64,000 nt of DNA from NCBI RefSeq assembly GCF_021730435.1, contig NZ_JABWGX010000004.1:1-64000 (forward strand), in the 5' to 3' direction. How positions within the stretch are numbered: position 1 is the first letter of the stretch; each line of letters opens with the position of its first letter. A program made the translations under genes and the position numbers. This document shows positions 15,934 through 46,660 of this stretch, in pieces. Origin of the DNA: Xanthobacter agilis (GTDB taxonomy: Bacteria; Pseudomonadota; Alphaproteobacteria; Rhizobiales; Xanthobacteraceae). The notes beneath the pieces were generated by a model. That model saw nothing but the letters and a program-made list of their open reading frames with translations. It did no database searches and was not told where the DNA came from.

Positions 15934-17091
15934 ATGACCGACAGCCCGCGCGCGAAGAAGGCCCTGCCGCCTGATCTGTGTGACATCGTCAAGCAATATG
16001 AGCGCACGGCCCTGGTGTTCCAGGGCGGCGGCGCGCTCGGGGCCTATCAGGCCGGCGTCTACGAGGCCCTGGCCGAGGTGGGCTGCGAGCCCAACTGGAT
16101 CTCCGGCGTTTCCATCGGCGCCATCAATTCCGCCATCATCGCCGGCAACACCCCCGAAAACCGGGTGCCGCGCCTGCGCGAGTTCTGGGAAACCATCTCG
16201 GCCCGCAAGGCCGCGCCCTGGGCGCCGGAAGGCGATATTTACCGCCAGTTGCGCAACCAGGTGAGCGCCACCCTCACCATCTTGCAGGGACAGCCCGGCT
16301 TCTTCCGGCCGCGCGTGCCCAGCCCATGGCTGCTGCCGGCGGGCGCGACCGGCGCCACCTCTTTCTATGATACCTCGCCCCTGCGCGACACGCTGCTGAA
16401 GCTGGTGGACTTCGACCTCATCAATTCCGGCGAGAAGCGGTTCTCGGTGGGCGCGGTGAATGTGCGCACCGGCAACTTCATCTATTTCGACAACAAGGAC
16501 ACCGTCATCGCCCCCGAGCACATCATGGCCTCGGGCGCGCTGCCGCCGGGGTTCCCGGCGGTCAAGATCGACAGCGAATACTATTGGGACGGCGGCGTCG
16601 TCTCCAACACCCCCCTTCAGTTCCTGCTCGACCAGCCCGATCACCCGAGCGCGCTGGTGTTCCAGGTGGATCTGTTCAGCGCCCGCGGGCCGCTGCCGCG
16701 CGACATGTACGACGTCGCCGAGCGGCAGAAGGACATCACCTATTCCAGCCGCACCCGCTACACCACCGACGTGTTCCGCCGGGTGCAAGAGCTGCGGCAG
16801 AAGCTTTATGAATCGCTGCAGCGTATTCCCGAGCAGTTGCGCACCGAAGAGGACATGGCCCTCATCGACGATTATGCGTCCTCGGGGCCGGTCAACATCT
16901 GCCACCTGATCTACCAGGAAAAGCCCTACGAGCGGGAATCGAAGGACTACGAGTTTTCCTACACCACCATGCGCGAGCATTGGCAGACCGGCTACGAAGA
17001 CACGGTGAAGACCTTGCAGCGGCGCGAATGGCTGAAGATGCCGGACGATATCGGCATCGTCGTGCACGACATCCACCGCATCTCCGAATAG
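15934..17091 (+). CDS. Patatin-like phospholipase with DUF3734 C-terminus
   Basis: A 385-residue serine hydrolase. The patatin domain has the oxyanion-hole GGGALGAYQAG at 31-41, the nucleophile elbow GVSIG with S60, and the catalytic aspartate in DGG (D219). The C-terminal DUF3734 region contains FSYTTMREHWQTGYEDTVKTL. No signal peptide is seen, so it acts on intracellular lipid or polyhydroxybutyrate granules. The start at 15934 has AGGA upstream; the longer frame has no homology. It follows acetoacetate decarboxylase and is closed by a very strong terminator at 17195. The 3-hydroxybutyrate dehydrogenase gene often found next to it is absent. Confidence 0.88.
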   Translation: MTDSPRAKKALPPDLCDIVKQYERTALVFQGGGALGAYQAGVYEALAEVGCEPNWISGVSIGAINSAIIAGNTPENRVPRLREFWETISARKAAPWAPEGDIYRQLRNQVSATLTILQGQPGFFRPRVPSPWLLPAGATGATSFYDTSPLRDTLLKLVDFDLINSGEKRFSVGAVNVRTGNFIYFDNKDTVIAPEHIMASGALPPGFPAVKIDSEYYWDGGVVSNTPLQFLLDQPDHPSALVFQVDLFSARGPLPRDMYDVAERQKDITYSSRTRYTTDVFRRVQELRQKLYESLQRIPEQLRTEEDMALIDDYASSGPVNICHLIYQEKPYERESKDYEFSYTTMREHWQTGYEDTVKTLQRREWLKMPDDIGIVVHDIHRISE

Positions 17092-17421
17092 GCGCGGCGA
17101 CGATCGGGCATCGGGGGCGGTTCTGCGCGGCCCGACCCGATGCCGGCACCGTGGGCCGTGCCGGAGGCGGGCATGATACGCGGGCATGACACAAGGCGCG
17201 TGGGATCCGGGGATCCCACGCGCCTTTTTTGCGCCCCGCGCCGGGGGTGGGTCGCGTCGGTGCGGGCGGACGGATGGCAGACCCCCCGATCGGTCCGGGC
17301 TTCTTCCATTTCCGCGACGGCTACCCGTGCCGCCCACAGACAAGCGGGGGCAAGGGCTGATGGCACCCATGTGGCCACTGCCCACGACACCGCCCCCGCC
17401 GAGCAACGGAAAGGATGACCG
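17092..17421. other. Gap between patatin and the accessory patch
   Basis: About 330 bases. It holds the terminator at 17195-17230 and a GC-rich stretch with no believable gene. The ribosome binding site of the next gene (GGAAAGGATGACCG) is at its right end. I find no copy of the tRNA-Leu 3' end here that could serve as the left attachment site of an island. Confidence 0.5.
17195..17230 (+). terminator. Strong intrinsic terminator
   Basis: GGCGCGTGGGAT and ATCCCACGCGCC pair perfectly across a CCGGGG loop, followed by six T residues at 17225-17230. It lies about 100 bases after the patatin stop and marks the left boundary of the accessory patch. Confidence 0.85.
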
Positions 17422-17904
17422 ATGGCCGATTTCGATTTCGTGATTCACCAGCGCACGGGCGTGAAGCGCCGGCTCATGCCGGGGGACACCATGCGCACGG
17501 GCGAGGTGATGTACATGCCCATGGAGGGGATGCACCAGTCTGCCACCCTCAAGCTGTCTGACACGACCGTGACCGCCTTCATTCGGAACGCGGCCGGCGG
17601 CGGCAAGCCCGACGACGTGCCCGCCGGCTTCTTCCGCGACGGCTACGGCCGGCTCCTGCCTACGGGCACCACCTGTGGCGATGACCGGGCGGACGGCAAG
17701 GCGCTCGGCTTCCGGCTGGCCTACGAGGCCGACCTGCGGGACGCGTACAAGGCCGGCGACGCCGAGCCTGCGGACAGGTCGGCGAACACCACACCCACCA
17801 TCGCCCGGCACGGCGAGCAGGAAGGCCCCGAGGCAAAGAAGGCCCGCGAGAGGTACGAGAACGACATGCGCGACGCGTGGCGGCAGAGCAATCCTAGCGC
17901 TTGA
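17422..17904 (+). CDS. Unrecognised 160-residue protein next to the TIR gene
   Basis: I do not recognise the family. The protein is soluble, without signal peptide or membrane segment. It begins MADFDFVIHQRTGVKRRLMP and has a Gly/Pro-rich centre with FFRDGYGRLLPTG. Its C-terminus, KARERYENDMRDAWRQ, is a charged helix that resembles the tail of small phage or island proteins in rhizobia. The start at 17422 follows GGAAAGGATGACC. It is unrelated to the upstream metabolic genes and ends 32 bases before the preferred start of the TIR gene, so the two are probably co-transcribed. Confidence 0.6.
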   Translation: MADFDFVIHQRTGVKRRLMPGDTMRTGEVMYMPMEGMHQSATLKLSDTTVTAFIRNAAGGGKPDDVPAGFFRDGYGRLLPTGTTCGDDRADGKALGFRLAYEADLRDAYKAGDAEPADRSANTTPTIARHGEQEGPEAKKARERYENDMRDAWRQSNPSA

Positions 17905-17936
17905 GCGCGACAGCGGCGTTCGATATCATTGGTTGT

Positions 17937-18644
17937 ATGGCTAGATGCACTGCACCAGTACAAGGTCATCGCTCAGCAAGCGCTGCTGCGGCCTGTCCCG
18001 CATGTCGTGGTAGCTATGGCCGCAGGTACAGCAGCTATAGCGACTACACGTCGTATCCTCTCCCTTCCTACTCCACTTCGGGGGGCAGCGGGGGCAGCCG
18101 GATCAGCGGTAGTGGGTCCGGCAGCAGCGTAAGGCCGAGATGGTCGCGAGCCGGTTCCTCCGTTGTGTACACGCCTGCCGAAGTGCGGACACTCACGCCC
18201 TACCGCGAGAGTGTCGAGAAGAGAGCGCCCCTGCCGGACCTTCGGGACGTTTTTCTCTGCCACGCATGGGACGACCGTGGAGGTGCCGCCAAGGAGCTGC
18301 ATGATCTGCTAGAGTCGCGCGGTGTTTCGGTCTGGTTCAGCGAAAAGGATGTCCTCCTAGGGGCGCCCCTGCTCCGCGAAATCGACAAGGGGCTGGCAAA
18401 GTCGCGAGTCGGGATTGTGCTAGTAACACCGGCTCTGCTGCGCCGTGTCCAAGGCGAGGGCATCGCCGACAAAGAGCTTTCGGCACTCTTAGCGCGCGAC
18501 CAGCTCGTGCCCATCGTGCACGACACGACGTATGAAGCTCTCCGCGAAGTCAGCCCCTTGCTCGGCTCGCGAAGCGGCCTGAGCACTGCAGAAAATACGA
18601 TGGCAGACGTCGCGGCCAAGCTCGCCGAGTTGGTCGCCCCCTAG
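17937..18644 (+). CDS. TIR-domain protein with N-terminal Cys/His motif
   Basis: The 235-residue protein has three parts. Residues 1-30 carry C4, GHR (H11) and CPACR (C20, C23), a likely small zinc-binding motif. Residues 30-75 are a Ser/Tyr/Gly-rich linker. Residues 100-235 are a TIR domain: DVFLCHAWDD (strand A), GVSVWFSEKDV with E136 as candidate NADase glutamate, then GIVLVTPALL, ADKELSALL and LVPIVHDTT. Bacterial TIR domains usually cleave NAD+ or make cyclic-ADP-ribose signals, often in phage defence. The ATG at 17937 is chosen because the Cys/His motif starts there; a TTG at 17901 is the alternative. It lies in a lower-GC patch beside tRNA-Leu, suggesting transfer. Confidence 0.85.
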   Translation: MARCTAPVQGHRSASAAAACPACRGSYGRRYSSYSDYTSYPLPSYSTSGGSGGSRISGSGSGSSVRPRWSRAGSSVVYTPAEVRTLTPYRESVEKRAPLPDLRDVFLCHAWDDRGGAAKELHDLLESRGVSVWFSEKDVLLGAPLLREIDKGLAKSRVGIVLVTPALLRRVQGEGIADKELSALLARDQLVPIVHDTTYEALREVSPLLGSRSGLSTAENTMADVAAKLAELVAP

Positions 18645-18691
18645 CTCTGGCCGGGGTAGTCGGTTGCTGAAAGGCTCTGCGCCGCTAGCAT

Positions 18692-18717
18692 CGCCCGCCC
18701 TACAGGCGGGCGTTTTG
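18692..18717 (+). terminator. Intrinsic terminator after the TIR gene
   Basis: CGCCCGCC and GGCGGGCG form an 8-bp stem with a short loop followed by TTTT (18713-18716). It lies about 50 bases past the TIR stop codon. Confidence 0.75.
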
Positions 18718-18923
18718 CGTTGAGTTCACACTCCGGATGCCCCACCAGAAAACTGCAAGGCGCCCTTGCGTCACCTGAATAGCCTCCCCATTTTGATGGA
18801 GTTGACGAAATAGCCGCAGCGGTTTGGGGGTACTCAAAGCGGTTAACTTGAGAACCCCCACTGCTGGCCCATCCACGAAGGCGGCTACCGGAAGGGACCC
18901 TCGTGGTGATACAGGAGGTGCGA

Positions 18924-19049
18924 GTGATCGCATTCGTCTGTGTCGAAGCCAGCCAGTCGGGTGCGTCGAGCAGTTATCGTCTGGTTGTGGGGTGCAGCGT
19001 TCATCCCACGATGGTTTCGATGATTGTTTGGTTCGCTCGACTGTTTTGA
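18924..19049 (+). CDS. Possible 41-residue small protein
   Basis: A GTG at 18924 is preceded by an excellent AGGAGG (18913-18918) with good spacing and opens a 41-codon frame beginning MIAFVCVEASQSGASSSYRL. It ends in a hydrophobic tail SMIVWFARLF before TGA. A GC stem with a T-rich tail follows within six bases, as expected for a short monocistronic gene. I do not recognise the product. The hydrophobic end suggests membrane contact. The case rests on translation signals alone, so it could be spurious. Confidence 0.35.
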   Translation: MIAFVCVEASQSGASSSYRLVVGCSVHPTMVSMIVWFARLF

Positions 19050-19386: not shown

Positions 19387-19473
<87 letters not shown>

Positions 19474-44697: not shown

Positions 44698-45310
44698 TGC
44701 CGCCCCGCTGCGCGGGCTTCGATTTCACCGGGCGGGTCCCTGATCTCCTCAAATCTGCGCGCGGACGGGGCGGGAAACCGAGCCGTCTCATTTCTTAGGT
44801 GACGAATGGTATTTTGAGGTGTAAAATGTCAGCATTGTTGTCGGGTCAAGAGGAGCTGACATTTATATGAGGGAATAGCGTGGTCCTCCGATGTCCGGAG
44901 AGGCGTGCGGATTGTATGCAGCACGCGCTTCATTGTCGGGATTCTGACAATTTTTGTCGTTTCCCGTCATGGGGACTATGGGCGTGGCGTGAACTTGTGG
45001 TTGTGTGTGGGGCGGAAGTATTTTTGCTCCATTGATCCCGCGCGGGGAGCTCCTTTCATGCGCGGGCCATGCAGGTATCCAGGCTGTTATTAGAAGAGAT
45101 TAAATGTGTCGCGGAATCACTATGTTCCACGTTGAATGAAGTTTGGTTTCTGGTAAGTTTTCATCCCATTCCTCGATTTGTAATGGCGTCGGCGTTGGGT
45201 GATTTGTTTTGTGTTGGACTCCACTTTGTGGTCCGCCGGAAATAGCCTTGTGATCTGAGAGTATATGATTCGTTTTCCTGCCGTATTGTTGTGGTGGGGT
45301 GAGGGTTGCC
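44698..45310. other. AT-richer intergenic region before the chemoreceptor gene
   Basis: About 610 bases with clearly lower GC than its neighbours. It contains a perfect 10-base inverted repeat AAATGTCAGC / GCTGACATTT (44824-44833 and 44855-44864) with a 21-base loop. The rest is low-complexity promoter-like DNA up to GGGGTGAGG before the ATG at 45311. Two short ORFs here look spurious. The base composition suggests acquired DNA or a large regulatory region. Confidence 0.5.
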
Positions 45311-46660
45311 ATGTCATCTGACCTCAATATGCGTGAGCGGTTGAATTTTAATCTCATTGACGCTGAGGCCGTTCAATTACTAAGGTCTTCGAAGGAGTGT
45401 ATTCTTCCGCTCCTCGATGGTGTTCTGGATAGATTCTACGAACATGTCGGGTCCATTGCGGAGACGCGGAGATTTTTCGGGGGGCCTGAGCAGATGGCGC
45501 GTGCCAAGCGCATGCAGCTCACGCACTGGGGTGTCATTCTGGATGCGCGCTTCGACGAGGAATACGAAGCCTCGGTGACCCGCATCGGCGAGATGCACAA
45601 TAAGCTTGGGCTGGATCCCCATTGGTATATTGGCGGCTACAGCTTTCTCATCAGTCATCTGGTGCAGGCTCTCGGCGGCGATCTCGGCGCCACGTTGTTC
45701 GCGCGGAAAAAGGCCGAGCAGGCGCTGAAACTTCAGACCGCCGTCATTCGCGTGGCGATTCTCGACATGGACCTTGCGATCCACGTCTATCTCCAGGCCG
45801 GGCGGCGCGACCGCAGGGCTACCCTCGACCGGCTCGCGCAGTCGTTCGAGGCGTCGGTGGGCTCGGTGGTTTCCCTGGTCTCGTCCTCTGTCGTTGATCT
45901 TCATACGACGGCGAAGGGCATGACCGCCTTCGTGGAGGAAACCTCGGTGCAGTCGCGGGCGGTCGCCGCCGCGTCCGAGCAGGCCTCGGACAACGTGGCG
46001 ACGGTGGCGGCCGCCACCGAGGAATTGTCGGCGTCGGTGCGCGAGATCAGCCGCCAGGTGGCGCAATCGGCCGATGTCACCTCCCGCGCCGTGCTCGACG
46101 TGGAGCAGGCGAGCACCAAGGTGAAGACCTTGGCGGAGGCGACCGATCGCATCGGCAGCATTATCGGGCTCATCCGCGAGATCGCGGGGCGCACCAATCT
46201 CCTGGCCCTCAACGCCACCATCGAGGCCGCCCATGCCGGCGTTGCCGGCAAAGGCTTCGCGGTGGTGGCCGACGAGGTCAAGCAGCTGGCCGAGCAGACC
46301 GGCAAGGCGACGGCGGAGATCCGCTCCCAGATCGAGACCATCCAGGCGGATACCGACGCCACCCTCGTCACCATCGAGAGCATCTCGGGCACCATCGGGA
46401 CCATCAACACGGTGGCCGAATCCATCGCCGATTCGGTGCGGCAGCAGGAGAATGCCGCGCGGGAGATTGCCCGCAACATTCACGATGCCTCGCAGGGCAC
46501 CATCGAGGTGTCCTCCAGCATCGGCCGCGTGACCGACGCGATGACCCAGTCCAACACGGCGGCCACACGGGTGTTTTCGGCGGCCTCCGGCCTCACGCAG
46601 CAGCTCGATGAGCTGAACGGCGAGGTGCGGCGGTTCCTCGCTGACATCAAGGTGGCCTGA
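45311..46660 (+). CDS. Globin-coupled methyl-accepting chemotaxis protein (HemAT-like aerotaxis sensor)
   Basis: A 449-residue soluble chemoreceptor without membrane segments. Residues about 10-165 form a protoglobin domain with the proximal histidine in [19 protein letters not shown] (H96). The C-terminal part is an MCP signalling domain, with the hairpin tip [13 protein letters not shown]...[22 protein letters not shown] and [13 protein letters not shown]. Such proteins bind heme and sense oxygen for aerotaxis. GGGTGAGG precedes the ATG at 45311; a GTG at 45299 is the alternative. No che genes are nearby. Confidence 0.93.

Follow-up and report, generated by a model that had tools for sequence, protein, structure and literature searches.

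What can a TIR-domain gene do when it lies beside a tRNA gene with no fixed neighbour, and how did it come to lie there? This question is raised by a gene in Xanthobacter agilis, located in a stretch of 64,000 nucleotides (contig NZ_JABWGX010000004.1, positions 1 to 64,000), which is referred to here as the window. The encoded protein consists of a head (residues 1-23), a linker (residues ~24-66), a short conserved lead (residues 67-101) and a TIR domain (residues 102-233). The coordinates of all features, including those of an insertion sequence that carries the gene in Klebsiella, are collected in Table 1.

Table 1. Positions of the features discussed, in window coordinates unless a locus is named.
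Feature	Position	Strand	Basis or remark
TIR-domain gene, 235 aa	17937..18644	+	ORF with ATG start
Sigma-70-like promoter: TTGAGC (17901-17906), 17-nt spacer, TATCAT (17924-17929)	17901..17929	+	pattern scan
Inverted repeat GCGCT-TG-AGCGC, two 5-bp arms, 2-bp centre	17897..17908	.	sequence reading; contains the -35 box
N-terminal Cys/His head, residues 1-23, CTAPxxGH...CPxC	17937..18005	+	invariant residues in alignments
Low-complexity Ser/Gly/Tyr/Arg linker, residues ~24-66	18006..18134	+	composition, disorder in model
TIR domain, residues 102-233	18240..18635	+	Pfam, structure comparison
E136, BB loop	codon 18342-18344	+	alignment to AbTir
E180, putative catalytic glutamate	codon 18474-18476	+	aligned to AbTir E208
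Intrinsic-terminator-like hairpin and T run	18692..18712	+	47 nt past stop codon
160-aa ORF, no family match	17422-17904		just upstream of TIR gene
tRNA-Leu(CAG)	19387..19473	-	3' end faces TIR gene; probable integration site
Klebsiella insertion sequence with TIR passenger	L085:4180-6665; L156:2501-4986; L157:2501-4987; L158:2501-4986

A probable one-gene unit with its own promoter-like site

The reading frame for 235 residues reported in the first-pass annotation is real. The start codon chosen by the ORF listing, TTG at 17901, was set aside in favor of ATG at 17937, because this TTG falls within a promoter-like site and the relatives start at the same place as the ATG. Only one promoter-like site, TTGAGC-17-TATCAT, is present between 17380 and 19400 (shuffled sequences: mean 0.4), and since its -10 box ends 7 nt 5' of the ATG, the mRNA of the TIR gene is probably leaderless. 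In the same interval, three terminator-like sites were found (shuffles: mean 1.4). With promoter-like and terminator-like sites of its own, the TIR gene thus appears to form a complete unit by itself. The inverted repeat that overlaps the promoter may be an operator, and it may also have arisen by chance.

The upstream regions of 79 relatives were compared with that of the window gene, which after removal of two near-copies gave 78 distinct regions. Promoter-like sites with at least 9 of 12 matches are found in ten of these when the gap between -10 box and start codon is limited to 3-12 nt, and in eight of the ten, including the window gene, this gap is exactly 7 nt. Other offsets occur in one to four of the 78 regions (shuffles: mean 2.15, maximum 5 in 20 shuffles), and the remaining 68 regions stay below that promoter score at 3-12 nt. 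The eight sites with the 7-nt offset belong to members of the Alphaproteobacteria, Acidobacteriota, Deinococcota, Actinomycetota, Myxococcota and Verrucomicrobiota. A Shine-Dalgarno-like word is present in none of the ten regions with such a site, compared to 31 of the 78 overall. In addition, a GCGxTTGA-type word is found 39-40 nt before the start codon in nine of the 78 regions, again including the window, and at 62 nt in a tenth, and these recurring words suggest a promoter or operator that moves with the TIR gene. As far as the upstream sequences tell, the promoter goes along with the gene in some lineages.

A Cys/His head on a flexible linker

The conservation of the N-terminal part was followed in an alignment of 121 complete members of the family (116 distinct), which are 52-88% identical to the window protein. 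This set is biased, as 80 genome loci entered it by matching at least one of six exact peptide patterns and by best scores, and 14 members were chosen for containing CTAP and FLCHA. Broken copies of the family exist and were left out (L151, with an annotated frameshift, L194, L199, L203, G174 and G235), as were repeats of proteins already included (L153, L156-L158, L180 and L204). The residues C4, H11, C20 and C23, which had been proposed to form a compact zinc-binding head, are at the places given and are invariant in 121/121 complete members of this partly motif-selected set. The same holds for T5, A6, P7, G10 and P21, and all nine residues are also invariant in a set of 46 (46/46), which was likewise selected in part by motif.

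The Ser/Tyr/Gly-rich linker is also present as described. Over 107 members it is composed of 37% Ser, 23% Gly, 13% Tyr and 10% Arg, with 0.0% Cys. Its length varies from 32 to 52 residues with the composition being kept, and its net charge is +1 to +6 (median +4, n=121). A full-length AlphaFold2 model, built from an alignment of 60 out of 81 family members, has a mean pLDDT of 71.5 and a pTM of 0.63, and residues 26-63 are disordered in it (pLDDT <50). Alignment and model together support a compact, conserved Cys/His head that is tethered to the TIR domain by a flexible linker. For the head itself, the full-length model gives block means of 62 and 71 (residues 1-20) and 50 (residues 21-30). 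Modelled alone from 46 out of 101 family members, the head reaches a mean pLDDT of 67.8 and a pTM of 0.29, which is too poor for a claim about its fold; this low-confidence model shows 23 residues with short helices, and a zinc geometry is therefore without structural support. In the reading preferred below, the head is probably a small zinc-binding knuckle.

A search with the head matched 56 plasmid records; 40 of them carry the name TIR, and the other 16 are without a gene name, called 'hypothetical protein' or unannotated. Eight of these 16 were read: three encode complete TIR members, three are broken copies, and two encode proteins of Mycolicibacterium. The Mycolicibacterium plasmid proteins (L196:2501-2998 and L197:2501-3034) begin with a head-like motif (weak match, E 0.5-0.6), in one of them with His in place of C23. 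After the motif come two hydrophobic stretches and another Cys/His motif in place of a TIR domain, and a related stretch of M. avium is without the head motif. In 396 genomes of Rubrobacter's phylum, the head matches at E 0.01 in 38, and the four strong matches are TIR proteins. Seven weaker matches were read and none contains the full motif; one has CTAP and GHR, with no CPxC.

The TIR domain and its unusual active site

The TIR domain was recognized earlier and is matched by Pfam TIR_2 at residues 105-198 (E 1e-14). Its ten-residue blocks have pLDDT values of 72-93 in the full-length model, except for 61 and 66 at residues 131-150, and the BB loop (136-142) is below 50. The best solved matches of the model are the crystal structures of TcpB, PdTIR, AbTir and BtTir (Z 16-18), with TcpB at the top (Z 17.8, 1.6 Å over 130 residues), followed by PdTIR (Z 17.4, 1.5 Å over 127 residues) and AbTir (Z 16.6, 2.0 Å over 132 residues).

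The active site was mapped by aligning the family profile to AbTir (7uwg, 8g83), with numbering taken from the chain range 131-267, which agrees with the residue letters named in the part of PMC11374754 consulted. In this alignment, E180 corresponds to E208 of the WxxxE motif, I176 to W204, S135 to D167 and C108 to S140. The first-pass annotation had named E136 as candidate catalytic glutamate. As E180 occupies the position of the WxxxE glutamate, E136 is not the catalytic residue, and the alignment and the account of WxxxE in the excerpt of PMC11374754, according to which NADase function depends on this glutamate, rule it out. The conservation expected of E136 is nevertheless seen, as C108, W111, S135, E136 and E180 are invariant in 121/121 complete members. 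E136 lies one residue past the D167 position, at the start of the BB loop, and on the basis of this placement it might partly assume the role of D167.

The residues S140, D167 and W204 of AbTir are missing from the family: Cys108 and Ser135 are found in 121/121 members, and position 176 is Ile in 94 and Val in 27. The excerpt of PMC11374754 reports loss of NADase activity for AbTir S140A, D167A and W204A, and describes W240 of TcpC, the equivalent of W204, as dispensable in that protein. Every aligned member deviates from AbTir at these three positions, so NAD+ may be a poor substrate, may be turned over differently or may not be used at all, and the chemistry of this family may differ from that of AbTir.

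An altered active site joined to a Cys/His head also fits a nucleic-acid-directed TIR protein, in which the head and the cationic linker would bind RNA or DNA and the TIR domain would act on NAD-capped RNA or another nucleotide, not on free NAD+. The Ser/Gly/Tyr/Arg composition and the median charge of +4 agree with this, as does the removal of nicotinamide from NAD-RNA by AbTir, BtpA and PdTir described in the excerpt of PMC10937652. However, any flexible tether resembles such a linker, and this explanation is considered very improbable.

A foreign or rearranged stretch next to tRNA-Leu

The tRNA-Leu that had been placed beside the gene is a tRNA-Leu(CAG), 742 bases past the gene end. The lower-GC patch in which the gene was said to stand is only partly borne out: positions 18001-19000 have a GC fraction of 0.621, the second lowest of 64 kilobase bins, but the effect is modest. 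The lowest kilobase of the window (45001-46000, 0.564) is located away from the TIR gene.

An enoyl-CoA hydratase gene adjoins tRNA-Leu(CAG) in 8/8 relatives fetched (15 searched), and in all eight the homology to the window stops at most 17 bp from the 3' end of the tRNA gene. On the other side, the patatin gene is located elsewhere in 11/11 relatives fetched, with homology stopping at 17082-17102, around the patatin stop codon; in the fetched stretches of these 11, no hydratase gene and no tRNA-Leu(CAG) was found, apart from one 37-bp match. As hydratase and tRNA stay together in the relatives and patatin is found elsewhere, the ~2.3 kb in between are foreign or rearranged. This stretch contains the TIR gene and the 160-aa ORF, of which partial relatives occur in 2 of 13 same-genus genomes, so it is accessory. 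On the far side of this tRNA end, one of the eight relatives (G007) encodes a phage-type tyrosine integrase (Arm-DNA-bind_3, Phage_integrase), and the 3' end of tRNA-Leu(CAG) is probably an integration site. No copy of this 3' end was found between 17000 and 19600, and the left edge of the element is therefore not delimited; a single 14-nt match of 86% between the tRNA interior and 18945-18958 appears to be fortuitous. In G004, the nearest relative, the patatin gene is shortly followed by a tRNA-Leu(CAA) (L087:1154-1240), so that each end of the foreign stretch adjoins a tRNA-Leu in one relative or another.

Distribution and horizontal transfer

Relatives of the TIR gene number at least 489 among the 593 pattern-matching stretches listed in genome contigs; the best 80 of these are full length, 67-86% identical and come from many phyla. 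A profile search (E 0.001) of 299 genomes, sampled evenly across the phylum to which the window belongs, gave 12 genomes with a match: six full-length, unbroken copies (that of the window genome included), the copies of G174 and G235, and four partial ones. The G235 copy ends at a contig edge, and in the G174 copy (L186/L192, G174:C12) the head is split between the His and the CPxC part by an insertion of ~2.5 kb. Within the genus, a full-length relative is present in 0/13 genomes, with only a 31% TIR match in G002.

In a tree with 21 of 75 inner branches well supported, the window gene pairs with a relative from Methylosinus (88% identity, support 100/92), and the next rows by tree path are Gemmatimonadota, Myxococcota and Acidobacteriota. 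The relatives in the tree cover 12 phylum groups and need 19 changes, compared to a minimum of 11. The phylum labels are clustered on the tree all the same, as shuffled labels need 34.8 changes on average and 0/200 shuffles were as low. A tree that crosses phyla, together with the 0/13 same-genus relatives, points to a recent horizontal arrival of the TIR gene.

A phage gene as origin was set aside, as 50,697 phage records gave only two weak matches (28-32% identity). Full-length relatives are present on twenty IMG/VR contigs. A scan of 119 of the 124 neighbouring ORFs there (five of L168 were left out) gave integrases and tail tape-measure proteins among others, so some of these contigs are probably prophages. 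Plasmid records matching at E 1e-5 number 343, with other TIR proteins among them.

Four Klebsiella plasmids were read in detail, and in each the TIR gene is enclosed, together with an ISNCY/IS1202-type element, in a unit of 2,486-2,487 bp. The four copies have the same ends, with one base different in one copy, and a dif-like site, read by eye, adjoins them. Perfect 5-bp target duplications (AAGGT and TGCAT) flank two of the four copies (L156 and L157) and are not seen at the other two; in one unit the transposase is unannotated. At least 80% of the unit is held by 119 of 1,551 matching plasmid records. Elsewhere, at L155:1724-1993, another ISNCY-type transposase is followed by a putative zinc-binding protein of the ECs_2282 family, possibly another insertion sequence passenger. 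Other carriers differ in form: in E. coli, the bare TIR gene with ~125 bp upstream is found on islands of the chromosome, where inovirus Gp2- and YagK-type genes are its neighbours (three regions read). The mobilizable Pediococcus plasmid pCM59 (L224:1-3915, 3,915 bp) has four annotated genes, in a gene table that may be incomplete: besides mobV, a small repA protein and a replication protein, the TIR gene is its only annotated cargo. In an A. pittii plasmid, toxin-antitoxin genes adjoin the TIR gene.

These carriers bear on the question of whom the gene serves. It could serve plasmids and other mobile elements for stabilisation or exclusion, with a TIR toxin that would harm cells receiving or losing a competing element and so benefit the element instead of the host. 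That the gene is common on plasmids, is the only annotated cargo of pCM59, lies inside an insertion sequence and, in A. pittii, adjoins toxin-antitoxin genes favors this, but it is also present in many genome contigs, chromosomes among them, and in the E. coli islands, and no conserved neighbour could act as antitoxin. This explanation is considered unlikely, and anti-phage and element-serving roles are compatible with each other.

Neighbours and the Thoeris label

Clustering of 1,377 neighbour ORFs from 81 loci, several of them with short flanks, gave a largest cluster that is found in 8/81 loci, and a conserved neighbour as partner was rejected on this count. The largest clusters are resolvases and, mainly in roseobacters, ImmA-like proteins. 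Family scans covered 290 of 298 neighbour ORFs (left out were those of L022 and L024, with TIR proteins identical to that of L020, and one of L036), with the 25 commonest families considered per scan. Among these are the restriction enzymes XhoI, BglII, Mrr and type IIG, as well as Abi_2, Abi_alpha, AbiJ_NTD4, DRT and retron reverse transcriptases, an ABC-3C domain and a CAP12-type TIR. Resolvases, integrases and transposases are also found in these scans, along with ordinary metabolic and ribosomal genes. Mobility and defence-type genes, which had been named as a sign to look for, thus lie beside a number of relatives, which suggests, in scans made without a control set, that the relatives sit in defence islands.

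The first-pass annotation mentioned similar architectures in databases with no described function. A full-length family model does exist, as PADLOC PDLC00424 (ThsB1|ThsB) covers residues 1-234 of 235 (415 bits, E 2.1e-125), but it is filed as ThsB of the Thoeris system. The TIR gene therefore belongs to a catalogued family, and the Thoeris label is doubtful. Thoeris membership was dropped as main reading, as the STALD domain (PF18185, the SLOG part of the SIR2-type ThsA), and with it this type of ThsA, was missing from nearly all genomes searched. STALD was not found in the X. agilis genome, and a test of 50 carrier genomes, chosen from the 80 loci, gave a match in one; 14 control genomes gave no match in either search. 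The single carrier match is a frame of 487 aa that reads like SIR2-SLOG and lies outside the fetched surroundings of the TIR gene of that genome. This clear match means that the search is able to find ThsA. A SIR2-SLOG ThsA is also not a conserved neighbour of the TIR gene in the 81 loci.

Several ThsB proteins can serve one ThsA. The full-length match to PDLC00424 could mark an orphan ThsB, which would make a signal of the cyclic-ADP-ribose type that is read by a ThsA encoded elsewhere in the cell or on another element. This is quite improbable, as STALD is so rare in the carriers and no ThsA, whether of the SIR2-SLOG or the macro type, is among the commonest 25 neighbour families of each scan. 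In addition, AbTir W204, which is required for 2'cADPR according to the excerpt of PMC11374754, is Ile or Val here; the excerpt of PMC10937652 reports that loss of W204 reduced 2'cADPR and did not abolish it. Searching for orphan system genes gave many matches and proved unproductive, according to the part of PMC8565338 (PADLOC) consulted.

Proposed function

The reading that is preferred, which is given about as much chance of being right as of being wrong, is that of a stand-alone, horizontally moving TIR defence gene with a logic like that of SpbK, with the head and linker as sensor or clustering part. The gene, its promoter- and terminator-like sites, the conserved head, the TIR fold, the place of E180, the mobility and the lack of a fixed neighbour were computed, while zinc binding, sensing, assembly, NAD+ cleavage and defence are inferred parts of it. 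In the stand-alone reading, the TIR protein would be produced from its own promoter and stay inactive at rest. The Cys/His head and the positively charged linker would recognise, or gather on, something made during phage or plasmid invasion, and this gathering would join the TIR domains in an assembly as in other TIR NADases. In this assembly, E180 would serve as the catalytic acid for cleavage of NAD+ or a related nucleotide, which would kill or stall the cell (abortive infection), and no partner gene would be required. The reading is supported by the fold, E180, the invariant head, the single-gene unit, the lack of a conserved neighbour, pCM59, the insertion sequence passenger, the matches on plasmid records, the 0/13 same-genus genomes, the defence-type families near relatives and the analogy with SpbK. 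Points that weigh against it are the changes at S140, D167 and W204 of AbTir, the low confidence of the head model and the existence of broken copies.

A bolder combination can also be imagined, to which we give a distinctly low probability. The head and cationic linker would be a portable sensor that condenses on foreign nucleic acid, mostly attached to this TIR domain and in some Mycolicibacterium plasmids to a membrane-spanning effector. The TIR domain, with Cys108, Ser135 and Ile/Val176 instead of the usual residues, would yield a product that is none of the cADPR isomers known so far. The alarm would travel as one gene with a leaderless promoter, even as cargo of an insertion sequence.

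The family is widespread, yet its label assigns it to a two-gene system, and the second gene of that system was found in only one of the 50 carrier genomes. If the stand-alone reading is right and the gene works alone, defence annotation misfiles the family, and a sensor of only 23 residues, as the head would then be, is remarkably small. The active site, odd yet fixed, allows for a direct test of TIR chemistry, and an immune-type gene inside an insertion sequence provides a simple route for the spread of defence.

Comparison with known systems

No earlier description of the Cys/His head or of a TIR passenger in an insertion sequence, and no experiment covering this family, was found in the open-licence literature. 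The head, the odd active site and the way of travelling seem to be undescribed so far, while the family itself is already in databases. It is the same family as Thoeris ThsB by PDLC00424, with the difference that the STALD of the implied ThsA partner was not found here or in 49 of the 50 carriers.

SpbK, as described in the excerpt of PMC12847820, is a single TIR protein encoded on an integrative and conjugative element (ICEBs1 of Bacillus subtilis) that is activated by clustering on the phage portal, and consists of a sensor domain, an 18-residue linker and a C-terminal TIR domain. The likeness lies in the single gene on a mobile element and in the order of N-terminal part, flexible linker and C-terminal TIR. 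According to the same excerpt, however, the N-terminal part of SpbK is a four-helix bundle of 94 residues, whereas a 23-residue Cys/His head and a linker of 32-52 residues are found here.

With AbTir, PdTIR, TcpB/BtpA and BtTir, the family shares the fold, the position of the WxxxE glutamate (E180) and a basic residue at the R151 position, which is Lys or Arg in 117/121 members. It differs from these proteins in the N-terminal part, with an identity of ~24-30% in the TIR domain, and from AbTir in having Cys, Ser and Ile/Val in place of S140, D167 and W204.

The Klebsiella element resembles the transporter insertion sequences, which the excerpt of PMC10132070 places in the IS1202 family, such as ISKpn21, ISKpn65 and ISRel10: the ends, the 5-bp duplications, the dif-like site and the presence of one extra ORF in an element of 2,486 bp are alike. 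The difference lies in the cargo, as the extra ORFs of the three named elements matched no Pfam protein of known function in that excerpt, whereas the extra ORF of the Klebsiella element is the TIR gene.
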